Shown here piece by piece: positions 20,301 to 64,000 of a DNA stretch of 64,000 nt (positions are counted from its first letter, which is position 1; each line of letters starts with the position of its first letter). This DNA comes from Tubiluchus corallicola (lineage: Eukaryota; Priapulida; Priapulimorpha; Priapulimorphida; Tubiluchidae), in assembly GCA_030141605.1 (NCBI GenBank), contig JAQGDQ010000242.1:62001-126000 (forward strand). The letters are read 5' to 3'. The notes under the pieces were generated by a model that was not told the DNA's origin, ran no database searches, and saw only the letters and a program-made list of their open reading frames with translations. A program made the translations under genes and the position numbers.

Positions 20301-23300
20301 ATTTCTTGGATGGGTTCCCACTTTGCTTTCTGTCTCTCGGCGTTTTCAAGTTTTGCGTCCAAGTCTTTCATGGCTTTCTGATGACGGATGAGTTTCTGAA
20401 ACGACATGACAATTTACTAATGATGGTGACGACGACGACGATGATAATGAGGGTAGTGACGAGCAGAATTAACGGTGGATCACCTCAAATGCAATGTTAT
20501 AAACATTTCGATATTTGCATAAAGATGGGTTCATTCTGAACTTACCGTCAATATGTCATCGAGCAGTAACTGCCAATCATCAGCGTCCTTGTCCAAATCC
20601 TTCCAAACCTTGTCCAACTCTTGTACGTTGTGACCAATCTTCTGAGCTATCTCCTGGGCCTGGTCTTCTGGCGATTTGGGAGACGAAGGTTCTTCTGTAA
20701 AAATGTATTGACATAAATTTTACGAATTTTCCGGGTGTAAAAAGTAACGGCAACGATCGGACAAAATGTCATTGCAGTAGACACATAGAATGAGCTTTAG
20801 GTGTTACGTGCACTCAACATAAACTTGAATATAGCAAAAGTAAAATAACAGCTTAAACACAAAAACCAGCATCACTCAAAACCATTTTTAAGTTAATATG
20901 AAACTTTGTTAAAAGTATACAGTTAAACCCCATTATAATGCTAACCTCACTTAACACCCAGATTTTTGGCAAAACAAAATATATCTACATTTGTATAAAC
21001 ATATACGTATGAATGCACCTGATCATAATGCCAAACTCGCTTAATGTCAACGTTTTCTAGAGTTTCAAAGTAGGCAGTATAAAGAGGTTCGGCTGTAATG
21101 GATCACTCTAAGACCATATTTTTGTCATTAAGAATTAATCACAAACCATTCAAAAACCATTTAGTACTTGAAAACAATACAGGTATTTTGTTTACAAATT
21201 GCAATTACGACACGATCCAAGCCACAACACCAGATACAAAAATGGATACATACCATCGTCGGGACTCTCCCGCTGTTGGTTCACCACATCATCGAGATCG
21301 TCCAGGTATTTGCGACCAGTGGTCAGTGTTTGAGTTATTACCGGACGCTTTTCTTCTATCTTCTTACACAGTGCTCGATGGTTGTCCACCTTTGATGAAA
21401 ATATCAGTTTCATTGCAATTAATGAATAAGAATGATCTAGTGCAAAGCAGTGCAAAAGAAGTGCAAGTGTGTGGGTATCGACTAACATATAATATATGCC
21501 AGGGTGCACCACTGACTCACCATGCCAGTGTGCACCACTGACTCACCATGCCAGTGCACACCACTGACTGACCAAAAATATTAAATCTTATTGACAAGAT
21601 ACAATAATTTATGCTTTCGCTTAATTAGCGAAGGGCATTCTATGAATGGTGTGATTATTTTTTCAAACTTGTTTCAAACGATTTAAAATTAGAATTGCTA
21701 GACTTAGCGGTCATCACAGGAATTCAAATTTTCAGTATTATACACTGTTATTATTAATACAAACTCTATGCACAATAAGACAGTATGCAGCTGATGCAAA
21801 TTTTAAAGATGATTTTTTTTAGCTTTATGTAACAAAAGGGTTTTCTTGTGCTTTAAATAAAACCTCAGACCAGCACAGGCATAGCCTTCCACAATATTTC
21901 TCTACTGGAGTTAACTTAGTGCCCGCTTAGGACAGACCATGCATATACTTGTATGACCCTCACCTGCTTCTGAACTTCAGGGATACTTCCTTTGGCTGGT
22001 TTTTCACTATTCAGTATTCGCTGTCGATCGTTAACCCACTGTATAAGATCTTGTAGATTTTCGGTAACTTTTCTCCATTGATCTGCATTTGTTTCAAGAG
22101 CCGCCCTAAAAACATTAAAAAAGAGTTGACAAAAATTTCTTTAATCATGTTGAACATTAAAGTCTTGAGTTCTCTAGATGTTATAGTGACAAAGTCAGTT
22201 TCCAAGTCAGAAAGTTTCTAAACATTGCCAAGTTTCTAAATAATGCTATAGGATACATTACAGCGACAACTTGCACATAATTTAATAATTTTGGCTTACC
22301 TGATGGCAAGTGACTGTGTGCGCAGGTTGTCCCATCTCTTGTTCATTTCATCCATCTTGCGTTGCAGCATCTGTGCATCATCCCGAGCATCCATCCCGTG
22401 CACGAGGCGCTTACCTGTGTCACCGAGCGACTGGTAAACATTACGATGATTATCTATTTCCGATTGCAAATCCTGCAGAAAAATAACGTAACTCTTTATT
22501 TATTCAAACTCAGTGAAACCTGTTGCCTTCTTCCACTGGAACTGGTAGATACATCAGTTTGAATTTGAATCGGTATGGAAATAAAGTTTTTCTGTACACT
22601 TATTTAGGACTAGAGAAAGTGTTTCCTTTCTCACAGATGTTATAGTTCTTAACATCTACCTGTCTAGCTGACATGAAAATGAAATTATCATTGAACACCC
22701 ATCCACTTATAAACCAGATCAAACTTTGTGAACTACATGCCTACCTGGAGTGCATGCAAAACCAACATTGTGATGTCAATGATTAAGCGTCTTAGCAGAA
22801 ATAACAAGCCTTAATTCATAATGTCATAATGTGAATTCACAACTATGTTTGTGGAATTGTGCACTTTGGTTTACCGGATTTTTTAATTTCTGATGTCTCA
22901 ATGCACAAGTATATTAGAATATAGATATGGTACGTTTTTACATTATTTAATAGTACTGTTGTATAAGCCAATAAAGAAAAGTTCGCCTTCTGAAAGTTAA
23001 TATATATGTAATTAGTCACTACGGCTCTCAAGTAATTGAAGGGGTTTCACTTAGTGGGCAGCAATTTACTGATTACTGGTTGATTTTCAGATCAGAAAGC
23101 TTAGCGCACAGGTTAATGGGTTCTAATCAAATATGTATTACCATGAAGCCATTTAAGGTGAATAAATAGGTGAGGCAGGTAGTTAATTACGGTACCGATT
23201 TCATTAGCGAAATTCAATGTAACCCGATGACAGAAAAGCCGGAGGCATAAGGTACTTAAATAAAATGTTTTATGAAATAAGTACACCTAATAAAAAAAGT

Positions 23301-26300
23301 TAAGCATAATTCGTAATTTATTATCCACTTCAGAATCATTTTACATTACAACCTGCATTACCACATTAGTTACAATAATTGTAACAAAATTATATTGATA
23401 TGCTATTATGTGGTGTAGTTAAGAAAAAATACAAATATAGTTACAATAATTGTAAAAGAACTATAATAATAAAGTTATTAAACTACATAATAGTTTATCA
23501 ACCAGAAATGTACGCTGCATAATGGTCAAGAAGCAAAGCTTGTGAACCCACCATGAAAAGTGAAAAAAAAACTGCTTAGAGACAGAATTATAGAAAAACA
23601 GAAAATAGTAGTGATAAAGATGCAGAGTAAAGATGGAGAAAAAGAGAAAAGAAATGAAATGGAAAGGAGTTCAGCAGAAAGTGTGACGCAAAGTATGAAA
23701 ATATGAACTGTAAAATAACGAGTCGCGGGACGTACTGTGACTATCAGTACTTCACGGAAAAACCCAAAGAATGCATTATAAGCAGGATTTGAGTAGAAGA
23801 GATTTCATATATTTTTTAAAGACATATGATGTTCGATGCATTGTAATATAAATTGATATTTTATTCTATAATTTGGAGCGGTAAATATTACAAAGTCTCT
23901 GGCAACATTGGTCGTACAAAATGAAATATCATACTCATTAAATCTGGTAAGGTGATATCAATGATTACGTACGACAGGATTTATGACATTGATGTTGAAC
24001 AGAAATTCTACTTTAATAATAATTCTGTTAAGTAATTTCAAGCAGGGCTGATATCGGTGCTTTCGCAGTACTACATCAACACGTGAACTGTCAATATCAT
24101 CAAATTTTAATCATAGACTGTCTGGCGTGCGTTTATTGCAATACTGCAAATTTAATAGGTTTACGTAACAGGCTAATGTGCATTTTAATAAGTTAGTATA
24201 AGCGATAAACTTTCTGTTGGTGTTCTCTCTGAGTACACTATTCGTTTTTATGTTCTCATCTTGTTTGTAAAATTATAACATACATGAGGCTGAAATAAAA
24301 TAAAAAACAACTAAATTATTGTTTAATAGTTTGTAAAGTAGATTTCAGCAGTATAAAATGTTTATTTCGACAAATCTTCATGTTCAAAAATTAAATAATT
24401 TATAACATGCATGTATTATTCTAAAATGTGTCAGGAAGAAACACGTTATAATTATGTTCTCATATTATGAGAAAAATGAACGAAACCCAAGATAAACGAC
24501 AGACCTGCAAAGGAAGGAATAAATCATCATGCATGACTGAGCGACGAACTTCAACCATCTCTCACCTGTATGCATTTTTCAAGTAACCGACAAAACTCTT
24601 CGTGATTCGGTGTGCCGAAAATTCGAACTTTCATCCGTAAACACGAGTTCGGAACCCGTTCGGCGGAACGGTGACGCGATGTGGAACCTGTTCCCATTGA
24701 TGATGACACCAGTAGGACGTACATAATCTTGCACAAGCATTTAGATTTCAAGCGTGAGACATACCACTCCCCGAAACTGGGATCAGCAAACAGGTGTGTG
24801 CAGAAATCTACCTCGGTTCAGCAGCATTTCAGGCATCAGAACAAATTTCAACTGACACTGGATTAGAATAAAACACGCACCATATGCCAAGCACTCGCTA
24901 CAATGCGCTAATTAACCTAAACTCTCTTATCAGTTACGATAAGAGCTTCACGAAGGAAGAAGAGAGCGTACCATCACACCGAGTCGTCAACTCAACATTT
25001 AACAAGCTGGCTGCTGCAGCCTTACGAAAGACTTAATTAAGCACAGTCGCGCAAGCAATAATTTTACCCACAGCGCACTGGGAGGCTGCGATATTTACCA
25101 ATTAAGCCAACCAGATTTACTATACAGAGACGTATAATAATGTTTAGTAACCTAGATATAGGAATGTGCACCACAATGGCCCACGCGAACTAAACTATTT
25201 TTTCGTTTGTTTTTTCACGCTCACTACAAAAGCAAATTAGATGGACAAACTGCTGCACAGCGGAGTAAGCAAACATGCAGTTATAAAGGACAAATTAACA
25301 CAACAGCGAAATGTGATACACAAATCACAGTCAGACTAACAATGCTCATTAGAATACTTAAAGCTAGTCCCCAGCGCATAAACATACAGTACATTTGATT
25401 TTGTCATAAATCTGACATTGAACGCTCAGCCAAGGTTAACTGCCCGCTATTTTTTCAAATACACTTGTACGACTCAAACAAGAATCTGTGTGCGCGTTTT
25501 TTAATTTCTTCTTTTATTCTTCGATTTTTGCACTTTTTACTTACGATTACTTATATAAAAGCCTAATCTGATGATAACGATGACGACAAAGATGATAATG
25601 AAGACGAAGTCTGTTAATAGCTGCCAACAATGCAGGCAGGTGAAGAAGAATAACTTTACTACGCATTCATTAATAGTTATAATTACTGGGAAGAGTCAGT
25701 GGAATACTCTGTCTACTCAATGAAATACCATTTTTTTATACAAATCACCCCGCCAAAGCCAGTGGCCACTCCACAAAAAGTAAAAAGTGAAAAAAAAACG
25801 AAATATAATTTTCGACAGGTCAAAAAAATGGAATCCTCAAAACTCTAAAACTAGTTCGATAGTAACTTGAGATGATTCCTAAAGAAAGTGAAATTATAAT
25901 TAACATGGAAAGAATTTCCGATAAAGAATTCCAAAAAGAAGAAGCCCAAGTTAGGTTCATATGGGGCTGCACCTAAGCATTTCAAGGCAAAATGAGCAAA
26001 ACAAGGAGTGTCAGTGAGAGCACCTTCCACAAATGCCACAAAAGAGCACAAAAGTCAGGCTTCGAAACGCAACAGATTACAGGGTTGACTCCAGACCAGA
26101 TCCAATACAAGTGTGCAATTTTGAAATGGTCTAGGTCACACAGTGAGGCACCATATCAGAAGTTACTACAGTACACAATGAATTTTGAATACACACGTGG
26201 TGTAAACAGAAGTACTAACAGGAATGTCTTTTTTACAGTAGGGTTACATTCATCCCACTTTTTTCTTTCTCCCACCTAAGATCAGAACACAAAATCGCTA

Positions 26301-29300: not shown

Positions 29301-32300
29301 CAGTTTATTTCTTTCAACTATCTTTAACAAACTGATTATATTAAAGGAGTACACACAGGCGTTTAATTTTTAGACGAGCACTTTGGTAGATGTGGAGAAA
29401 TTGGATGACAGTAGGTTTGGTGTGTACGACACAGTTCTAACGTGGACTTTTCACCAAGAGCTGGAATTATACCGCGAAGCAGCAGATATGTATATATTAA
29501 GCCTGCTTCCGGCTTAATATATGTATTGTGTAAGCATCCTAAGCATCAGTTCTTTCATAGTGAGAAATCACTGACTAAGCATTCAGAAGTGCTTCAGTGA
29601 GGTCCTTAAACGATAAGACGGAACAGCTTTTACTCTTACAATTCCTTCTTCTTGAAGAAGCCACGCAGGAGTTTCCTTATCAACTATACTCACCTTTTCC
29701 AATGATGTTAGTACATCTTGTACAGACAACTGTATGCCAATTACGGATGGGCGCAGGACACAATTAGGTGGCTCAGCTTCTACCACTAGGGGGCGCCTGT
29801 CACATAATGTCCACCGACTGCGAGCACGGCGAGCCAATGTTCTCAAAAGCCGTTACCACTACGTCGAAAACACAATGACAGTGGAGTAAGCATGCACCAC
29901 TGGTTTTCGTAACCCGGCTATAGATGTCGACACTATCGTCAAGAAAAATGCACGATTAATTTGATCAACATTTAATGGCTGCTAATGAATAGAAAAAAAC
30001 AGACATCATTAGCGAAAAAAACAGAAGCGTCGACCAGCCTTTTCAGAAACTGAATGAGTAAGACTAGCGAACGAGGACCCACCCACACACGAGCACGTGC
30101 AACACTTCAGCACACTTATGCGCCCATTACAGTAAAACTAGGGACACATCACACGACGTAATGAATTGCCTAAACACTGTCAGAGTTTAGATAATAATTA
30201 ATCCCAGTGTGCATGCAAGCCACTCGTATGTAGCAATCAATGGTAGCGTGGCTTCATCCATAGCACGCTACAGATGCGTAAAGAGCAGAAGAGGTGTCAG
30301 GTGAAGCCATTTGTTAGGTGATACCTGGCTAGTTGCGAAGTCATTAGCGCATAGGCTACAGTGACACTGCGACGTATAATAAACTCACATCACCTGGGAA
30401 GTTGAACGGCAACAAACACCCCGCTTGGGGCGCCAAGATGGCCTAACAAGTAATACATATTATCACACAAGGTCAAACCAATGGCTATTAATAAGCAAAT
30501 TATAGGAAAAATGTTTAGTCTGTCAAAAACGAGAAGAATGTTTAGTCTGCTGTCAATAATTACTTAGACATCTGCCGACAATGAGCAATATTTTAAAATA
30601 ACGAAACAAAAATAGTGTTATCAAAAACGTCTGATCTATCCAGACTGCTTTCAGAGTAATTCGGAATTAAAATGCTCACAAAATATGATCATACACGTTC
30701 ATGCTTCCATAAATGTTTATAGAAAAGTATAAATTACAAGTTCTTGTGTATACTATGGGACAACGTGTGACTAATAAATCGAAAGATAAAGAAACACGTA
30801 CAACAACGCAACCGTTGGAAAACATAATATGAAAGATTGAAAATTATTAAATTAACTATACGTCCGAAATGTAAATACTATACTTATAGTAAATACACCT
30901 ATTACTGTAATTCTTTGCCAAGATAGGTTTGTGGTCCTCAGTATGGCTAATGGCCAAACCAACTGTTGCTAACTTCTAGCCAGTGGGCTGAAACTAACAT
31001 TGATAATAGTGCAAATGAGTAACTTGTGTAAATATGGACAGAAAGATAAGCATATCACCTGAGCCTAGCCTGCCTACCTACCTAGTCAGTCTTACTTTAT
31101 GGTTTGCAAGGTACAAGATCGTTGCGCTCGTTCAAGCAAACTAAAATACAAAGTTTATTAGAGTTTTAACATTATGAAGTTATCCAAAGGGGTAAGTTAT
31201 GTTACGTAAGCTGATCAATATTTACCTTTAACAATTGTAATTTGCATTAAAATATGTAACACAGGAAAGCTTACACAGTAATTATTCTTACACGTACAGC
31301 TGCTTAAGAAAGTTTGTTATACAAGAAACTAACCAGACAATGCTTTTTCATATTTTGCTGCCTAGAAATTTTATAGAGTAGTTCGATGAATGCTGTTGTT
31401 ATACTTTAATTTCATTAGATTATCATAATTATAGTTTAGTCAAGATACCTATTGGAAATAAATCTACTCTCTTACTAAAAATTTCTAGCAAGTTTATTAC
31501 TAGGAATTTCATGCATTGTCGTGCAAATTTAGATACAATATTACGTTTTTTTAATTTCAGCAGAGAAAGAGCATTTTCATATACACATAGCGACTTACTA
31601 TTCATATCTATCATACTGAAGTATTGTGAAAGTTTTCTTATAAAGCTTTCAGAGTGTGTTAAAGCAACAACTCCATGTACTTATGTAGTATACCGGGGGT
31701 CAAAGTCGTATGTGTAAGTTCTACTATAAACATCGCAATCTGATCATCAAAGCTGATATTTTGCTTGCTCAACAACGCAAGGCGCACATTTCTATTTCTA
31801 GGCACTGACGTCAAGGGATTTGGATGGACTTATATTGAAATTTGTCAGGTTGGAAAATGAAGTAGTCACGCTGATAATTTTGTTTTGTTACAGAGAGAAT
31901 GTGTTTCTATCCACGTTGGGCAAGCTGGGGTGCAGATCGGCAATTCCTGCTGGGAACTCTACTGTCTAGAACACGACATACAACCTGATGGAACTTGTGA
32001 GAATGAAATTGAAGAGTCATACACCACATTTTTCAGTGTGACCGATTCTGGCAGGCATGTACCTAGGGCTATATTTGTGGATTTGGAACCCACAGTCATT
32101 GGTAAGCCTCGAAAAGTACACTTGGCTTAAATTTAAATAATTACCTATAAAACGTAAATAAGAACATTTAAGTTGAAGGCATTTAAAGCTCTCAGAGAGG
32201 CCATCAATAACATTTCATACAATATGCTATTCATTTATATGTAAAAACGTTCAGGTAAACAGCTGAGTTGCGATTGTATGAGCTTAGCAAACAAGCTTAA

Positions 32301-35300
32301 GCAACATCGAGCCTAGTTAGTGAATGGATGGGTAACTTCCGGTTCTATCCTCGCCCACGTAGATTTGTTTACCACACTACTCTTGGTTATTTACTATATT
32401 CTGGTAGGGTATGCATACACATCCGGCATGACTGATATATCTGCCTCATCTTAGAGAACTATCCGACTAAGCTGTATAAAAGATATAGATAGTGTAGGTA
32501 CTAAGGCATTCATTAGCACAGGCGGGCTTCAGAATCATTTAGGGGTGAGAGAAAGTTGCAGTGATGAACTTAAGTAATGCCAGCCTTAAATTGGTGAGTG
32601 CAGTCCATCTAACTGTACCAGTAAAACAACTACTGATTCTCTTTTCATGTCAAAAAATAGTTAATAAAAGGTCAAAGTACTGAATATCAGCCTGCTGTGT
32701 ATACAACTGCATATAAATTAATGTGCATAAGCGATTATCACAGTCAATACAGTTTTATTTATTTCCACAGCTATTTCTGACTTCCAATTCTCTGTTCATG
32801 TTAGCCATATGGAGTCATAATTTCCTAATTTTTCCAATGCACATGTAGATGAAGTTCGGACAGGACAATATAGACAACTCTATCATCCACAACAACTAAT
32901 AAGTGGAAAAGAAGACGCTGCCAACAATTACGCTAGAGGTCACTACACAATCGGCAAAGAAGTTATTGATGAAGTAATCGAAAGAGTGCGAAAACTGGTA
33001 AGTCCGCATATATTTGTCATACATGTATGTCATATAATTTGTTTAAGTGAAACCTTTTTAACCAAATAACACTCAAAAGTTTTTGATATTTCCTCAATGC
33101 CATAATATGCAAACCACCAAGTAATGTCTCAGTGTTTATTATTATCATAATTTAGGATTGGTTATAGGTTTCACGCTCAACCAACCACTTTCCAAATTAC
33201 ATGCAAAGGTTTAGGATTTCTCAAATTTCATTTTCTTATTTATACTGCTTGTTTCTTGAAGTAAATTGTTAAACAAGGTCAACACAGAATCATTTCCTTC
33301 TGCAGACTGACAATTGCAATGGATTACAAGGTTTCTTGGTCTTCCACAGTTTTGGAGGAGGAACAGGTTCTGGCTTCACCTCACTTCTTATGGAACGCCT
33401 ATCTGTTGACTACGGCAAAAAGTCCAAACTTGAGTTTGCTGTGTATCCAGCTCCAAGGGTAGGTTGATGATTCTTCAATATTTATAATGCATACATTTAA
33501 CAAAAATTTGAAAAAAAATGACATATTACGTTTCACAAGCTAAAATTCTTCTGCAGATTTCTACGGCAGTGGTGGAACCGTACAACTCCATCCTTACCAC
33601 CCATACAACATTGGAACACAGTGACTGTGCTTTCATGGTGGACAATGAAGCTATTTATGACATCTGTCAGCGTAACCTAAACGTAGCTCATCCCACCTAC
33701 AACAACCTCAATCGCCTTATCAGCCAGATAGTCTCCTCAATCACTGCATCCTTGAGGTTCGACGGGGCCCTCAATGTGGACCTCACTGAATTTCAAACAA
33801 ATTTAGTGCCATATCCACGAATCCATTTTCCTCTGGCAACTTACGCGCCAATTGTACCAGCTGAAAAGGCATACCACGAGCAACTAAACGTTTCAGAGAT
33901 CACCAATTCCTGCTTTGAGCCATCCAACCAGATGGTAAAATGTGATCCACGCAATGGCAAGTACATGGCTTGCTGTTTACTGTATCGTGGCGACGTGGTC
34001 CCAAAAGATGTCCAGGCAGCCATTGCAACCATCAAGACAAAAAGAACCATCCAGTTCGTCGACTGGTGTCCCACTGGCTTCAAGGTTGGCATAAATTATC
34101 AACCTCCAACGGTCGTGCCGAGTGGCGACTTGGCCAAGGTCCAACGTGCTGTCTGCATGCTGAGCAACACCACAGCAATTGCAGAGGCATGGGCGAGGTT
34201 AAATCACAAATTTGATTTGATGTACGCCAAACGTGCATTTGTGCACTGGTACGTGGGAGAGGGAATGGAGGAAGGCGAGTTTGCCGAGGCTAGGGAAGAT
34301 CTTGCTGCTCTTGAGAAAGACTATGAAGAAGTCGCAGAGGAATCCTATGACGACGACGAACAAGTAGATGAATACTGATTGTAATGTAGAACAGCTAAGT
34401 TGATTGAATAGATGCACAGTCAACGTAGTTTGAGTTTTGTAGCTGAACTTTAATAGACAGCATAACAGACTGGTTGGAAATTAGGCAGACATATCGGACG
34501 CGAATAAAGTTTGATAACCTACTACATACTATATACAGGAATTTTTATAAAGTCTAAATTTGGAATTTTGGAAAAAACGAAAAAAATTGCTAGTAAAAAA
34601 TTATTACGTAATTTTCTAGACAATGTCTTTAATATCGTTATCTTTTACATGCATTAGCAAGCCAGCATTATTTTAACAGTTAAAATAAAAACTGTCACAA
34701 TCGTTTTACCTTAATGTTTTTACCTTAATTGTGATCATCATCATCATTCGCCCATTACATCTGTTACAGACTATAATGTCTCTAAAAGAAATTTGCTCTC
34801 AAGACAATTAAACACACAATTGATCCAGTAAAAAACTAGACACTACTATGCCAGTAAGTCGGCAAGTTTCAGCCATTCAACAATATGGCTTATCTACACT
34901 TGCAAAATGTAAATCCAGTAACAAGGCAGCAACAATAACATATGGCCTTTGGCAAAATAAGCCTAGTTTCGAAAAAGACACAAATATTCGTAAAAATTGC
35001 AAGAGGTTCTTAATTTTTACGGGATTTTGGGCACAGGGTGACATCAGCACTGTACGATAACGGTTGGGGTCCAGCTAAGGGTCCAACAAAATGACCAAAT
35101 TAGTATTGTTCTTTTTGTGATTACCGCATAGGAAAAATCCTGCAATTAAAAATGTCTTTTTTCCCAAGAATGAAAGCAGAAACTGTATTTTAGCACCCCT
35201 GTTCTGCTTTTAATGAAATTTCATTCACATTTAGCTGAATCCGTCTGTGACACCATAAAAAATTATTTTACAAAAAGTTTACTGGAATGTGCAATTTAAG

Positions 35301-38300
35301 ATTTTCACAGAGTATTAAAAATAGTTTACTTAAAAACACGGCTTTCTCTGAAGAAAAAACTAGATGTTTCGTTTTTCCTGATGAGTTACAGACTCGTATT
35401 AGTTCTGTCAGAATAGGTGCATAAAATAAGCATTATACTATTAGGTGTCGCCATCTGCTGGCCAAATTATTCGTTCATTAGTCAAAAGTAACAACATTAC
35501 TTTGTACTCACTGTACGATGTTTTTTATTTTAGAGCCTCAAACTTCTTGGGTAACCATAGCAACGTGAAGACTGCGTTTAATAAAGACAATAATTTATTC
35601 TTTGTAATCATAAAGTTAATGGCTCAGCACAGAAACCTACAGGGAAATAATTATATTCAATATCACCTTTCAAAATCCTTGCTGATGAAGTCGAGAAAAA
35701 AGTACATTTATACAAGAGAAGAGTTAAATGCCAAAGCGCAGAGCCTAAAAGCATTGCTTGCTATTTACATAAACATTACAGCAGGGGAACATCGTCTATT
35801 ATTGTTATGTATGCGTTTTACCAGGCCGCAGATGTGGCATTAGAGATCTAGTTTACAAAACCACGTTTAAGAACATTAACAGTCTACATTTTCAAAAAAG
35901 TTAAAAACTCTAGCTGTAGATCTCACTGCCGCCTTTTACGTAGCAGTAAAAGGTTTTTATTTTGTTTTAATGCATTATCTGTAATTTATTTTGTTGTTTA
36001 ACATGAAGTTTTGTTGCACTTATCATCTAGTTTGCACCTGAACATTTTCATAGAACAGTGTCATAAACTACACTGACTCACTATCTTTAAAGCAAAACCG
36101 TACCCAATCTTAAATTGTAGGCCAAAACAATATACTTTTTAAAATATTGAAAGGAAACATACTATTTTTCAAAAATGACTTACGTGAAAGAATTATTACC
36201 ACACAAACACAATTTCGTGTTCGTGCCACTAGTTCTTTGCTGTTACATGCACTTCACCATTCGCTAAACGAGCACTACCCTGCATTTCAGAAACGCATTG
36301 CATAAAAAGTAGGTGCTGTATCTCAGAGTTCAGATGTGTTAGTTTGTGACGAACTACACACGTTCCACAGCTCATGCGTGAGCACAGTGGTAAAATTGAA
36401 ATTTGAATTTTTATCTTAAAACTTGCCGAGTTTTAGTACAACACACTGAATGTGTTACAGTAGCACTGCAGCACATTCATTCGCTTCAGCAAACACGTGT
36501 AACAGGCTCGTGGAATATTTCTGATGTTGAAAATTATGTTAATTTGTGATGTCGTCAATAAATGGGCTCGCCCGCCATTCTTTAAGTTTTTAATCTTTTT
36601 ATTTAATTATCAGAAACGCTTTTGCAGTATTAATAGTGTTAAAATGTATACTTTTTATCACACTTGAAAATGGGGTGGTATATGAAAAATCATCTTGTCT
36701 TCTTTTAATTGTAAAATATACATTATGATGTCATTTTTGTTAAAGGCAAATAAAGAATTTTGCTACTACTTACTTCGAAGATAAATACCTATACATAGAT
36801 TTTGGCCTACATTAGACAACCATCAAGCTTCACTGCAATGACACAGTGTTAGACGTATTGAAAGTTTAGATGTTTTTCAAATTTGAACAAAGGAAACTGT
36901 TAGAAAGTAATTTAACTGCAACACAGTTAGAATGTAACATGAACATCACCAGGTTGCTGGAACTTCACTGTGGACTGAAAAAAATGACACAGAGAGAGAC
37001 TACTAAATTGAAGCCTTAATATTATTAAGTTGATACAAATTCTTCTAGAAAGCCTCTGTCTTTCTATGACACTACCTGATATAAATATAATTTTAGTCAG
37101 TAAGCCTTTCCTTGAGCATGAGGCAACAAAAATGGGCAAATGATGAAAACATGGGAATATAATGAAATAACGAAATAACTGGAACAATCTCCTTAGTTGT
37201 AAAAGACTTAAGGTTGTAAAGATGTTGTAATACATAGCTAAACATCCTAACATCTTTATATTTCAGAATTAGTAACAAAGTGAAATAATTAGACATAACA
37301 GAGCCAAAAGTGCAATTTAAATTGTACACTTTATCTGCAGACTATATTTTTATTATTGTCAAAGAGGCAAAAAAATAAAACCTTTGGCCACAGTAACCAC
37401 TGATAAAGAGGCCTCAGGAAGAAGAAATGGTATACAGGTGGAGTAATTATTGCAGATGAAATACGTAGAAGTAGATTAATATACAATGGCACAATTATTA
37501 ACATACATCAGTACAATTAGTTTATGATTAGTACAAACTACACTTAGTTTATTTATATTTATTATGAATTTACAGAACTAATGGCAAATCAAAATGTCGT
37601 TAAAATTTTGCCATTTTGCTAAAAAAATTATTATGAGTTTAATGTAGCTCTAAATAGAGCTATAGCTACTCAAATTGAGAAAGGAAACCCTGATATAATC
37701 TACCCTTTTTATTCTATTTCAGATACTCTATATTAAAGAACAATTGTGCATTTTCGGTTCTTTAGGAAAAACAAAATCCCGTCAGCTTACCAGAACCTAA
37801 ACAATTTCAGGACTGACAAGGCAGTATTTCCGAATCGTATTGTGGTACATTCAATTAGTGATTACTGAAACTATAACCAGATGTCACCACGATACGGGAT
37901 TACGAAACCTTAGAAAACTATATCCTCTAGGTGGCTGACAGCTCGTTTATTGAGCAGGTGAGCGTTTTAGCTGCATTATATGCAAGTTACTGAAAAATGT
38001 ACATAAATTAGCACATATGACGTTAAATAATCGGCCAATTACGCCATAAATATGAACGTAGTAGACACAGTATATTCACACAAATTAATTCTTTATGTCC
38101 TGATTTTCTAGATACGAATAATGGAGATAAACTGATTTTTCTCATTGGGACCAAGGATGTCGATATTTTAAATATAGTGCGTAACTATGTAAATCATTGC
38201 TTTACGAATAGTTCATGAATTTAATTGTTAATATCTATAGGGTGCTGCAGCAATAATCTAAATTCTGTGTTTATATGGTTTTTATATTATACGTGTTTTA

Positions 38301-41300
38301 TACAACAATATGTGATGTCGTCCTATGTTTGTAAATGTTTGAATATTTTGTGAGCACGTGTGTTATGTAAATGAACTGTGACAATTTGAACTATATATTT
38401 ACTCAATAAATAATTCAATTAATGGAGCAAGTTCTGCTGCAATCTCTGCAGTTACTGAAATCATTATGTTATCATACGGTATTTATGCGTCAGTTGCGTC
38501 TGACAGACAGCAAAAACACTTAGTTCGGCATCACGCAGATCTATATTTCTACAATAAACACAGGCGCGTTGAAAACGCTTATCATCCTTTCACAAAAATG
38601 TCCATTACGAATCTGTATCGTTTTATCCACTCCGTCCACTATCGGCTGATCGAACCGAAAACCTCTTGGATCGTTCAAAAAATCGTTTACGACGCGAAGC
38701 TGACACGGAGATAACGTACGACGGCGACAACGGGTTGTCAGACGATGAGAAATGCATCAGCTATGAATGTCCCACAGAAATCAGATAATTATAAAATCAC
38801 TAAAAGCGTCTGACTGCTTTAGATATTACGTTGCAACTTCTTAATAGGCATTTTGGGCCAATCATATAAAACCAAAGCGACAAGAAATCATATTGTGGTC
38901 GTATTCGTTTTCGAAATTGAGAAAAACCATTCCCATTCTGAAAACAAGAGATGACAAGCTGATATTGATCCAAGCCAACAGAGCAGCTAGATGAAAACAC
39001 GTTTCCTTCCTCTCTAGTGGTTTGTACAACAATAGAAAATATCAATTTTACACATTTTCTTCTTCAGTGCGCGTTGGGAGAAGACAGGGCAATAAATTGT
39101 AGTCGGCAGTTATAAGAAAGGAAGTCTGGTCTACTCAGGGGTTCTTTATTATGCACCATTGGCTTCATGAAGTAGATTACGATCATTACAGCAGGAGCAC
39201 AGGAGAATGCCATATATCCTTGCCCACCGCCTAAAACAAGCTCTTGTTTATGACTGGATATTAGCTCTTGTTTCTGACTGGATATTGCGAATTAGATATA
39301 CCCCTCGGACCCCTCCCCCCCAAAAAACTTGATTAGATTTTAGTTTGCTTAGTTAACAATTTTTGTAGCGACGTATTCTTTTTTCTTTTGATTCTCATAT
39401 GCCTTTACTTAACTTCGGTCAGATATGTCAGGATCAACTCCATATTTACATCATGCAGGAAGCCTTAGGCCTATATCTAACCAAGCAATTAGACGTTTAA
39501 GCAATCAGTTCCATGTTTTTGCCATGTACAGTGGATTGTACGGTACACCAAGCAGCATGGGCCAGTCTCTCATGTTTATAAGATGTAGCAAGGTACACCA
39601 AGCAGCATGGGCCAGTCTTTCATGTTTATAAGATGTAGCACGGCACACCAAGCAGCATGGGCCAGCGTCTCATGTTTATAAGATGTAGCATGGTACACCA
39701 AGCAGCATGGGCCAGCCTCTCATGTTTATAAGATGTAGCATGGTACACCAAGCAGCATGGGCCAGCCTCTCATGTTTATAAGATGTAGCATGGTACACCA
39801 AGCAGCATGGGCCAGCCTCTCATGTTTATAAGATGTAGCATGGTACACTAAGCAGCATGGGCCAGCCTCTCATGTTTATAAGATGTAGCATGGTACACCA
39901 AGTAGCATGGGCCAGCTTCTCATGTTTATAAGATGTAGCATGGTATACCAAGCAGCATGGGCCAGCCTCTCATGTTTATAAGATGTAGCATGGTATACAA
40001 GTAGCATGGGCCAGCCTCTCATGTTTATAATATGTAGCATGGTACACCAAGCAGCAAGGGCCAGCCTCTCATGTTTATAAGATGTAGCATGGTATACCAA
40101 GCAGCATGGGCCAGCCTCTCATGTTTATAAGATGTAGCATGGTACATAAAGCAGCATGGGCCAGCCTCTCATGTTTATAAGATGTAGCATGGGCCAGCCT
40201 CTCATATTTATAAGATGTAGCATGGTATACCAAGCAGCATGGGCCAGCCCCTCATGTTTATAAGATGTAGCATGGTACACCAAGCAGCATGGATCAGCCT
40301 TATCCGACGTACACATAGCATCACTATGCCTTATACGAAGCACAGAACAGATTCATGTATGAGCCGTAAACCACGCATTACGCTCACAAGTGTCCTGTTT
40401 ACAGTTTGTAGTATAGATCAGGCTTTGCCTCGTGTCTGTATCAGGATCTTTACATGCTATAGCATTGATGAACCTTTCACATCTGCCTCATGTAACATGG
40501 TCACTGTCCAGGCCTTGCGTTTCTCCTTTTTATCATGTGAATCAGTCTCACGCTTCCACCGCCCGCTTATGTCAGGAATTGTGGATCAGGCCCATGTTTG
40601 ATTAATTGATGACGGCGCTAACTAATTTATCAGACACGCGTCTACCGGAGGCGTGAACAGAGGACGTTTTGTCTGAAAGAGGAAATGACTGCAAGACACG
40701 TAACTTCAAGGTCCCGGACTGGCTTCGCGTGACGAATAGCTTTTACATGTCGGAGATCAAAGTCGGAAAACTTCTTACATTACACGTCAGGGAATTTTGA
40801 CAGATAAATCCTGTTCAGGTCTGTTTTAGAGCCGTACTACAGTTCTAAAAACGGCAAATCCGACACAAAACGAAAAGTGTTGCTCGACAAAAACTTCGGG
40901 CGTAGTGTAAAAAAACTTAAGTAAAGTAGATTACTACAACGCGACTTTAAATTCATAAAAATAAGGGAACGCCGTCTGACAAACTGCGACATCTCTATTG
41001 GTTTATGGTAACCTGATTTGCTATACCATATAAAACACCATACAGTGGAGACAAAGATGACAAAATGACATTTATTAAAAGACCATTTCAAAGTTATGTA
41101 AATTGTATGTATCAAACACACACGCGCACACGAACATGCACGCACGCACACGTATGCACGCACTTTCGATCAAACGACTGGAAGCAACTGGTAATTTTTT
41201 TAATCATTTTACATTATTAGCTTTGCAAAACCTGAATAGTCCTGCATAATCCAAACGTAGGCCAAGTGCGAGGTAAACAACTATGGCACACGTACAACTA

Positions 41301-44300
41301 AAGTTTAGCGTCCTTCAAAGTTCAAAGACGTAACTGGAGATAAACGACTATGACGTTCATCTATAGGTAAATGACTTGAGATATATCAGCACTCCAAGAT
41401 ACGTTTATAATTTCCAAGAAATTGAGCTCACATAAAGAAAGGACTCCACTATGACTCATTTCCTTAATAATGCAATAAATTCATTTGCATTCAACAATAA
41501 GTCACAAAAGTTACTAGACACAGTTAACCGAGCGAAAATGCTTAACATATTTTATTAGCAAATGAGTTTGTACAGTATGATTATTGACGGCTTAATACTG
41601 CATAAGCAGTAACGTAAATATGACGCCAATCAACGACGAAATATTAATCAAGCAAGTAAACTAGAAAATCCAAATTCAAACAGTAAACTGAAAATAAATC
41701 TAATCTGCATTAGACGCCATTTAATTAATTAAAAGTTGGAAAAATTTACGGAATTTAACCCAGGTTAACGCAATTACGCTGTTCAGTGCATTTAATTAGG
41801 AACAATTCATTAGCGCTGCCATTAACGTTGCAGAATTTGTACACTGGACTTTTCAGTTTATTACTGAGCTTTAAGTTCTTAGTGTAAGGTCAAGGTTAAA
41901 GGGACTGTTTGTCCACTGTGTATAATTTTATTGCTCAGGTCAAGGTGCTTACTGTAAGGTCAAGGTTAAAGAGACTGTTTGTACACTGCGTTTAATTTTG
42001 TTGCTCAGGTCAAGGTGCTTACTGTAAGGTCAAGGTCAAATATACCATTGAACAAGATGACAGCAGCATTTAAGCATAATTATCAAGAATGTTTTTCTAA
42101 TTAACTATTTAAGGAAGAAAAAAGTCAATAAGCAAACCAGCAAACAAATAAAGGAAGGAACTAAAGAAGGACAAAGAGACAGACAAACAAATGAACACTT
42201 AATGAAAACACAAACACACTGCAGTTAAGCGATACTGTCATAAATGATTGTAAACCTTTAGTAAGGTGGACATACGGACACGAAAATGGTCTCTTCCGGG
42301 ATAAGTAAATATTGATTTTGCATTATGTAAATTATGGCATTTCCTGAAACCTAACTCCACAAATCTTGGAAGCGTTATGAAAACATCACCTCTATCCAAT
42401 CACAAATGTTATTACATGTGCATATCAACACAACAGGCATGTCTAAACATGATGTGGTATAAATGAAACCATAACCCCCATATAAATAGCTTCTGTCCCC
42501 AAAACTACCGATTTGTGCACTGCACATAACTACATAGCAAAACAACTATATAATTTTGATTGGTTATTTAAGATGATAGACTCCCATTGCTAATTTATTA
42601 TATTCCTGATTTTTTCGCTTTTTTCAAATGATTTTCACATTGTGACAGGAGTTTCCTATTTTTTGCATAAACAAATCTATATAAAACATACACAACTGTC
42701 AATGAAGCAATAAGCTGCTTAACTCTAAATTCTTCTGTACACGTATTAACAAAAATTAATACTTATTCACACCTACTACAGACAGTTAAATAAGATACAC
42801 TTACAATTGTAAAAATAACATTACCTACTTTTACAAATAAGCATTATAATAAATGAAATAACTGATGTTAATTGGACAGATTACATAGGAAAAGTAGTAA
42901 CTTAAAAATAAGCTAGAAAAATGAAACGACAAGCCAGGCATAATTACAACAAGATTAAGAACAGTGACATAGTTTAAAAGAAAGCGTCTCCCCTATTCCA
43001 CCTACTTGATCAATTAAAAAAAAACAACGGGCAAAACCAAAACTCAAAATTTGATCTTATGACATTGAAGCTCAATGGCTTCCTCATTAATGCTGATTTA
43101 TAGGGCGCCATGTTAAATCTTTATTATCAGAGCGTGTCACAGAGATAAACACTGGTGAGCCGAGTACATATTTATGATAGAAGGTGTTTACATTGTACAC
43201 ATTAGCCGACAAAGTTCCTCTTGATCAGTAGAGCTTAACAGCCTTAGTTATTATTCCACACAAACTCAGCCCATAGCTACACTAACAGCTAGTGAAATAG
43301 ACTAAGGAACGACCAAGATTATTGCTGAGCTTATTCAACAGAACCTTAATATAACAGATGATTTCAGCTACCAGGCTATATTAGGTTTAAATGTAATTCT
43401 GCAAAAGTGATTAAATGATCACAAACCGTTGTTTTTGATGTTTGTAAAATGCTAGTATTCAGTGCTTTTTTAAGTTATCATATCTGTTATAGCAATGCTT
43501 GCCTTAATATATATATATATATATACTTTTGTTACTGGTAATATATTTGTTTTAAAAGAAATGCTAACGGGGTACGAGTTCTAGACACTTCAGTTACTAA
43601 ACACCTAAGAAATTTCTAGAAAGTTTCACTGAAACAGCTTTGGATAGTGAAAACCACTCAGAATTGTTTTTGTACTTTTCATTAAAATTTATATGGTTCA
43701 TTACATGGTCAATCGTTAAATAGGAATTAAGCCAATGTATTCATTTAAATTGTGAATAAACTAATACCTTATATGAATGGCAAAATATTTCACCAATTAA
43801 AGGAAATTTTCAAAACCAATCCAGTCAAACCCTCAAACACATTAGTACTGAGTCTATGATTAGTTAATATTATTACTACATTTATTCTGTGTCAGCCAAT
43901 GTGACCTTCAGTATAATGTGACTCTCTAAATTAAACTTGATGTACATTTCTCTCCTATAGACAATTGATAGATTTAATACCTGCTATCAACAGCGCTAAC
44001 ACCCAATTCAAAAGTCATGAACCAAAAATCACAAAACATTTACTAACCTATTTACTTATTTCAAATGGCATGCAAGAAATAGCAATTAATATCTGAATAA
44101 AACACTTTTTCTAAGCCACATACAGTGAACTTACCATAAACGTGTCTAACCAAACGTTGACTTGCTCACTGTCCTCCAGAACACCTTCTTTAGAGATTTC
44201 ATCTTCAATGTCCTTGGTCCTCGTCTCTGTTTCTGACAGCCAGACGAAGAACTTGGCAAGAGCAGCATCAAACTGTTGCAGAACATTGAGAGAATTCTGC

Positions 44301-47300
44301 ACATTCTTCTGTCTGCCAGTTAGACTGAAAATGGAAAAGTATAAAATCATGAGGTTACAGTTTAAATGAATGGACAAGTGTAAAATCGTGAGGTTACAGT
44401 TTAAATGAATGGACAAGTATAAAATCATGAGGTTACAGTTTAAATGAATGGACCAGTATAAAATCATGAGGTTACAGTTTAAATGAATGGACCAGTATAA
44501 AATCATGAGGTTACAGTTAAAATGAATGGACAAGTATAAAATCAAGACGGTAAAGTTTAAATGAATTGACTATGTCATTACTACTTTAAAATGGTATCAT
44601 AAACATAAACATCTAACTGCAATCGTGATTGCAGGCCAAGAAATAAGCATCAGTGAGCGCTACTGAAGGTCAAGAACAATGAGGTCTCCACGAAGAACAA
44701 CCTTGTTAATCATTAGGGGAAGTCAAAACTTGTGAAGATCAACAACAACAACAGAACTGCAACAATGGCAACGACAGCAACAACAGCAGTGCAGTGGCGG
44801 CTGCAATGACGATGATGATGACAACGACAACAACAACAATAACATCTAGAACAGTAGTTATCTGGATCGAGTCACTTGACCAAAAATTGTCCGAAAGTCA
44901 AAATTACCATACAGATTAAAAATGAATGATAAGTCGCCATAACTCCAAGGTACAAACTAAATCCCACAGCCAAACTCCTATTCTTCAGCAGTTAGTCGAT
45001 TAAGAAAGAGAGAAAAAATTGATTTGATTTGCTTTTTGAACATAGAGCTTATAAAAATATTCACATTTCAATTCGTTATCTTATAACCCTGTACATTCCG
45101 GGTTCGAGGATATCAAACCGTGAAATATCAACAGATGTTAAAATAAATCATCTTAAAACATAACGGTGGTCAATATGATCAAACAACATCAGTAAAACCA
45201 GAAAGATTTGGCAAAAATCAAGAACCAACCTGAAATGCAAAATCAACGTGAAGATCAAATTCTTCCCAAAAATTAAAATGCCATTGATGAAAATCAAAAA
45301 TCATCACAAAAAGTCAAAATTATCATGAAAATGAAAAATCATCTTTCAAAGTTAAAAAATAAAAAAACGCAAAAATTCACAGGCATGTCCAAAATCGTCT
45401 ACAATGGTGGATAGATGAAAAATCATGCTAAAGACATAAGAAAACAAAAACCATTGCAAAAATCAGAAGCTATCAAGAAGAATAAATCACTAAAGAAATC
45501 AAAAAAAAAATTCTGAAAGCTAAAAGTCACAGCTGAAGGTCATAAACCACACTGAAAGTCAAAGCTCATTGATCATTACCCAAGATGATTTCTCAGATTG
45601 CACAGGAATGAAGCTTTATGTTTAAAAAACAGTCAAATAACAAATATGTTGGAAGTCCAGTTATTCTTCTTTCCAAGGGTGAAAATGAAGAAAAAGAAAT
45701 CGTAGTAACAATTAAAAAATACCAGTCATCAAAAGATGAAGCAAAACACTACAGCTACCAATGTGAAAAGACGAAGACTGTACTTTAGTCATCAATTCCA
45801 GAAATGTACTTTTTTGCACAAAGTACAATAATAACCATATGTGAGCCACACAACAAGACAGCAGGAAACCCTGGCAATTATACGTTATTTGCCCATTAAA
45901 CATTCATATGTCTCGCACTTAGCCAGGGTTAGCATCATCAGCAATGGACCACTCTGAAGAAGAAGATGATGATGACTGATGCAGGGGAAAATCAATCGAA
46001 TTCCACTTGGTCGATGCTAAATGCGATAATCAGCAAATGATTACTCGAGCATCTTCCGCAACCGGAAAACACGGGAAGACGCAGGAAGCTTGATGGCAAT
46101 TTTTAGAAAGAGCCGAAGGTCTCGTTTTCGTTCCAATTAGTTTGATAGCCTAGGTTGCGGGGAGTTTGAAAACCAACGTCCAATTTTGAGGAAAATAGCT
46201 TGTATTAGGAAGGCTGATTACGAAGCTTGTAATTCACATTTGCAGAGTATAAAAAGCTTCAACAAACACCTTACAATATGTACAGTGTTACTACCTTTGT
46301 TACTTGTAAGCCTAGATGTCTGGGTTTGTGTCTAAATTTTCATCGTATATAGAAAGGAGTAAATAATTGTAAATGTAATGTATGATGGATGTAAATATGT
46401 CACTTTAATAAATATTTTCTTATTCTCACTCACTCACACTTTTATGTGACTTAATTCTATGTGATTTAATAGTGAAACAGTTTACTAGTATGCATATTGT
46501 GAGCATATTTTAATTTATTTACTGTATTCCTGTATTTGAAGTAAAGTATTTACTGGGCTGTATTGCTGCATTAGAAGTAAAGTATTTACTGGGCTGTATT
46601 CCTGTATTAGAAGTAAAGTATTTACTGGGCTGTATTGCTGCATTAGAAGTAAAGTATTTACTGGGCTGAATTCCTGTATTAGAAGAAAAGTATTTACTAG
46701 GCTGTATTCCTGTATTAGAAGAAAAGTATTTACTGGGCTGTATTCCTGTATTAGAAGTAAAGTATTTACTGGGCTGTATTGCTGCATTAGAAGTAAAGTA
46801 TTTACTGGGCTTTATTGCTGCATTAGAAGTAAAGTAGTTACTGTATTACAAGTAAAGGCATAAAAAGCTATGGGGTGATTGTAACATTCCTATACGTCTC
46901 ATCCAGTCATTAGGGGACACGACCTTTCAATAGCCTTAGTCTTCTAGCTTATGTTGATCTCTGATAATGAAAAAGCTCAGTCTACTGAAATACATTTATA
47001 CTGAATGTATTTGTATTGATAATGCACGTAAATGAATGTCGAAATGAATGAAGATGAATGAATGAACGAATGTTATTATGTAAAGGCCAAGAACGAAATG
47101 ATTAATTTACTGGCATTCCCTGCAAGCTTTTACAAAATCAGAAACATGTACTACAATCGCATACATTTGGAATGATGACATATACATAAGTCATATAATT
47201 CTTCCTTGCAGAGACCCTTTACAGATCCAGCAAATTGTAGGCAGTAATACAGCATAATTATAACACGATTAATTTCTTCTCTGTGGTATGTACCGTTATG

Positions 47301-62644: not shown

Positions 62645-62889
62645 ATGCCTGCGAAAAAATATTTCTGCCAATTATTCTGCGCTTTTGTCATTTTGCTGCC
62701 CATCCTCTTAGCAGATGCGGCAAACACCACGCCCAATATCATCATAATGCTTGCTGATGATTTGGGATACGGTGACCTCAGCTATTTTGCGCATCCTACC
62801 TCTTCTACACCAAACATTGACAACATGGCTCAGAACGGTTTAGTTCTTACTCAGTTCTACACAGCCAGCTCAAGATGCACTCCATCCAG
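62645..62889 (+). CDS. ARSA: Arylsulfatase A-like, first coding exon
   Basis: Lysosomal-type sulfatase that removes sulfate esters (ARSA acts on sulfatide). The ATG at 62645 starts a hydrophobic signal peptide of about 24 residues, with cleavage likely near ADAANTTP. The sulfatase fold begins at NIIIMLADDLGYGDL, whose paired Asp bind calcium, and the exon ends inside the active-site signature C-T-P-S-R, where Cys is converted to formylglycine. The donor GTGAGT splits the Arg codon of that motif. The next exon is 63308-63696. Similarity to human ARSA (IFADDLGYGDLGCYG, LCTPSRAALLTG) is higher than to ARSB or GALNS, but the full gene extends beyond the window, so subfamily is not certain. The promoter region upstream shows nothing recognisable. 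Confidence 0.9.
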
Positions 62890-63307
62890 GTGAGTACGAT
62901 ATCATAATCATGTATAGGGAAAGAGCTAATTTTCTACGACAATTGCCATTGTTCTTGGTTTATGAGATCAGGACATGGAGCAGTTGTTATATATGCTAGT
63001 GTCTTATCTAAACAAGCTGGTATAGTCACTATTGTTTTCACATGCGTTTTCACCACTTTTTTGCATAGGCAAAGTAAGCACAATTTATAGCATTTTGTAT
63101 ACTTAGAAAATTTATATTATAGTATTGATCATGGGGTATGTTTGCTATCAATGTACCCAGCTCACAAGGTTGCAAACCAATGGGTTGTTAACAGATTTGC
63201 TCGAACGGGCCAGAAAATGATGATGCGTGTGCATAAGAGTGCTATTTATAAGAACTATAATAACTCATTGCATGTAAAAGGCTTACCAACTTTATTTCTA
63301 TTTGAAG

Positions 63308-63696
63308 GGCTTCAATATTAACTGGGAAATACCCAGTAAGAAGTGGGATGTATCCAGGAGTTTTCAGTCCTAAGAGCATAGGAGGCTTACCCCTTGAGGA
63401 GCTAACTATTGCAGAATTCCTCAAAGACAATGGCTACAGCACAAGTCTGGTTGGCAAGTGGCATCTGGGATACGGAGAAAATGGAATGTACTTACCACTT
63501 TACCATGGATTTGATGAATACTACGGCATACCGTATTCACACGACAACTGCCAATGTGAGACTTGTTTCTACCCGGATATCGAATGCACAAACAAGTGTT
63601 ACCCATCACAAAACACAGTTCCTTGTCCGGTTATAGACAACACAACCATCGTAGAACAACCAGTGGATTTGACAGAAATGTCAAGCAGACATCTGG
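63308..63696 (+). CDS. ARSA: Arylsulfatase A-like, second coding exon
   Basis: 389 bp, acceptor TTTGAAG, donor GTAAGT. Encodes ASILTGKYPVRSGMYPGVFS, LPLEELTIAEFLKDNGYSTS and VGKWHLGYGENGMYLPLYHG FDEYYGIPYSHD. The GKWHLG lysine/histidine are active-site residues, and human ARSA has the same LPLEEVTVAEVLA and GIPYSHD text. A Cys-rich loop (CQCETCFYPDIECTNKCYP) follows. Exons beyond 63696 lie outside the window; 63697-64000 is intron with no exon seen. Confidence 0.92.
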
Positions 63697-64000
63697 GTAA
63701 GTAAACCAATTACAAAAACCACTATGTCCACTGGCTAACAATCCAAAAACAGAATGGTATATACTATTTGAAACAAGTGATAACAAAAATAGGATTAGCT
63801 TCTGACATCCTTCTCTTAGCCTTTAGAAAGAATAGCTATATAACATATGTAATAATCAAAGCATGTAGATAGACAACATGAAAGAAATATTATTCCTCTA
63901 ACAGATATGAATACCAGAACAACTGATGATGCTTGCCAGCCTTGGTTATGCTCCACCAGATTCCACATTTAATTACCAACTAAAGCCTAATTAAGACAGT

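Follow-up and report, generated by a model that had tools for sequence, protein, structure and literature searches.

Human Dp116 (S-dystrophin) is a known isoform of dystrophin. According to the part of PMC5664101 available to us, its exon S1, of 91 bp, sits in intron 55 of DMD, 755 bp upstream of exon 56, and residues 2740-3685 of full-length dystrophin are common to both proteins. The same part of that paper gives MLHRKTYHVK as the residues encoded by exon S1, with 24 residues instead if the upstream ATG of the proposed Dp118 is used, and describes utrophin Up113 as having 48 private residues and diverging at the same point as Dp116. For invertebrates, Jin et al. 2007 (PMC1790709), in the passages available, conclude from sea urchin SuDp98 and fly Dp205 that this intron holds an ancient promoter, and SuDp98 is said there to use an internal translation start.

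The window analysed here, a stretch of 64,000 nucleotides from Tubiluchus corallicola, carries on its minus strand the 3' portion of a dystrophin gene (8172 to 55014, outer bounds approximate), which runs on upstream past the window. A tblastn search with human dystrophin as the query (3,685 residues, with DLQGEIEAH at 2740 in that query) gave colinear minus-strand exons for the spectrin rod, WW, EF-hand, ZZ and C-terminal parts, and matches to the EF-hand_3 and ZZ families back the assignment of the host gene to dystrophin. EF-hand_3 occurs at two places in the assembly, the host gene and one other, which fits a single dystrophin gene and one relative. Exons 55 and 56 of human DMD are 190 and 173 nt long. 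The exon 56 homologue aligns with human dystrophin from residue 2740 on, and all 58 of its residues match solved dystrophin (PDB 9c3c_D, 2733-2790) from end to end with an E-value of 1.7e-13. The exon 55 homologue shows an 18-residue spacing to its donor, as in the human ERLLEDSKGVKELMKQWQ before the splice point (alignment p 0.014). Because these two homologues flank it, both in phase 0, the intron that holds the open reading frame (ORF) discussed below is the orthologue of DMD intron 55. The features concerned are as follows.

22300 to 22472, minus strand: homologue of DMD exon 56 (173 nt, start in phase 0, first residues DLQSEI)
44135 to 44324, minus strand: homologue of DMD exon 55 (190 nt, phase 0 at its end)
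22473 to 44134, minus strand: intron orthologous to DMD intron 55 (21,662 bp, flanked by the phase-0 exon 55 and 56 homologues)
24566 to 24697, minus strand: coding portion of a candidate alternative first exon (132 nt, 44 codons, phase-0 end)
24698 to 24724, minus strand: stretch that lengthens the ORF in frame, starting from an earlier ATG at 24724 (53 codons in total)
24560 to 24565, minus strand: donor GTGAGA of the candidate exon (CAG/GTGAGA, score 11.5)

The ORF is free of stops over the 44 codons that the earlier note had claimed, ends exactly at its strong donor and, as that note had also said, reads as one open frame when 24697-24566 is joined to 22472-22300, so that donor sequence and frame both fit a predicted in-frame join to exon 56. 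Its frame extends over 88 codons from stop to stop and is open back to 24817. The "good ATG context" attributed to 24697 did not survive inspection, since the context is TCATCAATGG, with T at -3 and G at +4; this codon is also preceded in the same frame by another ATG, 24724, with A at -3. Eight ATGs, the in-frame 24724 among them, lie within 303 bases upstream of the ORF, and one that is out of frame, at 24740, begins a frame of 53 codons overlapping it. Together with the T at -3, these upstream ATGs weigh against the first-exon reading. Compared with Pfam, the ORF matched no family. It has one match in its own assembly, by DNA and by protein, which lends no support to an origin from a repeat or transposon; the overlapping out-of-frame peptide, transposase-like by eye, likewise has one match in the assembly and no Pfam family.

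We give a probability of roughly 45% to an alternative first exon, akin to Dp116 S1 and to that of Up113, whose coding part would be the ORF; like the odds for the three readings weighed against it, this figure is a judgement for which shuffles and controls support the order of magnitude only. Transcription would start a little above 24724 on the minus strand and translation at 24724 or 24697, and splicing from the donor at 24566 would remove 2,093 bp and lead into the conserved exon 56. This would yield a short dystrophin whose private N-terminus has 44 or 53 residues and which continues with the rod from exon 56 on, keeping the WW, EF-hand, ZZ and C-terminal parts and being devoid of the actin-binding end. 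The promoter, transcription, splicing, translation and function of this putative exon are what we infer from the letters, and it is a good and plausible candidate rather than a demonstrated first exon.

The partial text of PMC5664101 agrees with the earlier note that Dp116 begins in DMD intron 55 and continues into exon 56, and the join point and phase predicted for the candidate are those given for human Dp116. The two are also alike, as far as that text goes, in the orthologous intron, in a position towards the 3' end of a long intron and in having more than one possible in-frame ATG; the distance to exon 56 is 2.1 kb for the candidate versus 755 bp for human S1, and the private residues number 10 in Dp116 (24 in Dp118) versus 44 or 53 here. 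Dp116 is a known isoform, the candidate a predicted one. In length the candidate is nearer to Up113 (G-utrophin), for which the same excerpt gives 48 private residues and the same divergence point; this is a vertebrate paralogue, likened to the candidate by length and join point. SuDp98 and Drosophila Dp205 are invertebrate short dystrophins said in the available passages of PMC1790709 to arise within the orthologous intron, but there SuDp98 is credited with its internal translation start and Dp205 is said to be larger.

That the N-termini are unrelated in sequence was borne out: the ORF gave a local score of 15 against the private residues of human Dp116/Dp118, versus a shuffled mean of 17.8, with 80% of shuffles as high, and a likeness to Dp118 seen by eye was thereby ruled out. 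Such similarity to vertebrate Dp116 is not required over this distance. Nor do we claim that the final residues of the ORF resemble those closing human exon 55, where p was 0.05-0.11 with 8 to 14 of them compared and 0.15 with 18; for the exon 55 homologue of the window itself p was 0.07-0.49. Of an earlier suggestion that the intragenic promoter is homologous to that of Dp116, the orthologous intron and the equal predicted join point stand, but the join point cannot by itself serve as proof of homology, because it is expected of any intron-55 first exon that is spliced to the next conserved acceptor. The accompanying inference of an ancient promoter is already in print in Jin et al. 2007, as the available part of PMC1790709 makes clear.

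The same part of Jin et al. cites Neuman et al. for a link between large introns and promoters. Other introns of the gene measure 132 to 1,312 bp (19 downstream) and 1,321 and 8,986 bp (the two preceding), sizes that rest on exon placements made here, from which small exons may be absent. The case for a promoter from the size of the intron is weakened, since a tubulin gene nested on the opposite strand accounts for part of it and two sulfatase genes lie in a larger upstream interval.

31894 to 34378, plus strand: nested tubulin gene in the intron (last exon matching Tubulin_C, E 7.1e-53)

The tubulin gene, antisense to dystrophin, reads open in its four located exons; the first exon, which would carry the ATG, was not found. 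We take it to be of alpha type by its features, and it ends in tyrosine. The two sulfatase genes stand in tandem, antisense and nested in a dystrophin interval further upstream that spans ~35 kb at most, the one at 62645-64000 on the plus strand running beyond the window and the other beginning 2,833 bases past the window end.

CpG density at the ORF counts in favour of a real exon.

24588 to 24687, no strand assigned: CpG-dense 100 bp (14 CpG versus a mean of 2.05; second in 214 kb of the contig)

Counting CpG in windows of 400 bp puts this place third in the intron, and the top place in the 214 kb lies in the same intron at 38633-38732 (15 in 100 bp), with a core that has no other match and a low-coordinate edge, 38300-38421, that matches many places. 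The starts of the two nearby sulfatase genes are absent from the 25 CpG-densest places of the 214 kb, and CpG density is therefore not established here as a mark of promoters; at the ORF it is suggestive only.

It is quite possible, if not our preferred reading, that the ORF is open by accident, in a part of the intron where local GC richness leaves few stop codons to be expected, happens to end at a decoy phase-0 donor and does nothing. Among 19 phase-0 candidates in the intron (donor score at least 4, ATG frame of at least 5 codons) the ORF has both the longest frame and the highest donor score, and its donor is the second best on the sense strand of the intron, where two score at least 11 in any frame (24566 at 11.5 and 29694 at 12.2); the matrix is generic rather than trained on this species, and 17 donors of the dystrophin gene score 2.9 to 12.4 on it. 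When the intron was shuffled 400 times with dinucleotides kept within 1-kb blocks, 1.0% of the shuffles gave a donor of at least 11.5 with an ATG frame of at least 53 codons and 2.5% a donor of at least 11 with at least 44 codons, thresholds that were set from the candidate's own values after it had been seen. So low a rate with local composition kept speaks against mere chance, as does the antisense strand of the intron, which holds no match with a donor of at least 8 and at least 30 codons, and the ORF with its donor is moderately beyond chance. On the other side, the rate scaled to three phases and both strands of the 268 kb surveyed predicts ~1.9 false matches. The survey returned seven frames with a donor of at least 11 and at least 44 codons, the candidate included, and five of the six others match Pfam (Ras 9.6e-9, Sulfatase 8.5e-12 and 4.9e-13, CH 2.4e-4, which is below Pfam's curated cut-off, and Spectrin 1.4e-11), a result that speaks for a real exon. 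The sixth, at 90233 in extended window coordinates, has no match to Pfam or to any dystrophin of the PDB; it is rod-like by eye, with a human dystrophin match of only E 0.21. At 35 to 43 codons there were three more frames, two without a Pfam family and one in C2279. Several control loci had been picked for spectrin, ZZ or other family matches and are exon-richer than average, the stretches of C2046 being unselected. With ~1.9 false matches expected, one unexplained survey frame is also compatible with chance. The lack of any relative of the ORF in Pfam or elsewhere in the assembly sits well with an accidental frame, and so does its codon score of -0.03 to -0.05 bits per codon, versus 0.04 to 0.57 in 12 dystrophin exons, which 57% of 831 GC-matched open stretches equal or better, making it intron-like; a synonymous-only score, which barely separates exons from intron, is no better than intron. 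The first 44 codons of the two sulfatase first exons also score close to zero, however (-0.018 and 0.001), so that the codon test, its training set being mostly spectrin-like, says little on first exons, and we do not use codon usage as evidence against coding.

Two further readings would accept activity in the intron and assign the ORF a different part in it, or none. One places an old short-isoform promoter in the intron with another or a non-coding first exon, for example at donor 29694, and with a methionine start within exon 56.

29694 to 29852, minus strand: rival 53-codon open frame lacking an ATG (phase-0 end at AAG/GTGAGT, score 12.2)

This donor, the best on the sense strand of the intron and as such a point against the candidate, stands beside a GC- and CpG-rich block (29723-30122, single match), the exon 56 homologue offers in-frame ATGs at 22394, 22370, 22355 and 22346 (with a purine at -3 for 22394, 22355 and 22346), and the internal start described for SuDp98 in the passages of PMC1790709 available would be a precedent. 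But the open frame preceding 29694, which has one match in the assembly, contains no ATG and matches no Pfam family, and we regard this reading as unlikely. That the ORF instead belongs to a cassette exon between 55 and 56, or to an unrelated nested gene on the minus strand, seems highly improbable, even with a frame open back to 24817 and an intron that already houses one nested gene. AGs from 25000 to 24580 that preserve the frame without a stop score -4.4 to -8.1, whereas 14 of the gene's own acceptors reach -1.1 to 5.7 by this rough measure, a fifteenth having no AG in reach; the fair AGs at 24776 (2.6) and 24687 (0.3) would shift the frame, as the exon length is then no multiple of three. 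The ORF also resembles no Pfam family. As an exon, the ORF would more probably be a first than an internal one. The further idea that it is the relic of a small exon lost between 55 and 56 was abandoned, as exon 55 runs to a phase-0 donor with the human spacing.

Should the ORF indeed be a coding first exon of the Dp116 type, a private coded N-terminus of the Dp116/Up113 type, and not just a promoter, would predate vertebrates, with its letters diverged beyond recognition. Use of such an exon, located in the orthologue of DMD intron 55, by an invertebrate whose dystrophin gene is long and vertebrate-like is a tentative proposition, somewhat short of an even bet. Even if used, the candidate would not by itself be a new idea; it would add one more invertebrate, beside sea urchin and fly, with a short dystrophin starting in this intron, and would bear on whether short dystrophins without the actin-binding end belong to the original functions of the gene. 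The prediction is concrete in that it names a junction, 24566/22472.

Three minor features of the window may be recorded. A match to the Rfam tRNA family at 94-166 on the plus strand scores 35.5 bits against a gathering score of 29 and is not reported by ARAGORN. Tandemly repeated frames with a period of ~50 bases occupy 39508-40352 on the minus strand and are CpG-poor. The stretch 36086-36708 belongs to a repeat family for which the assembly gives 39 or more near-full-length matches, at 84-88% identity.
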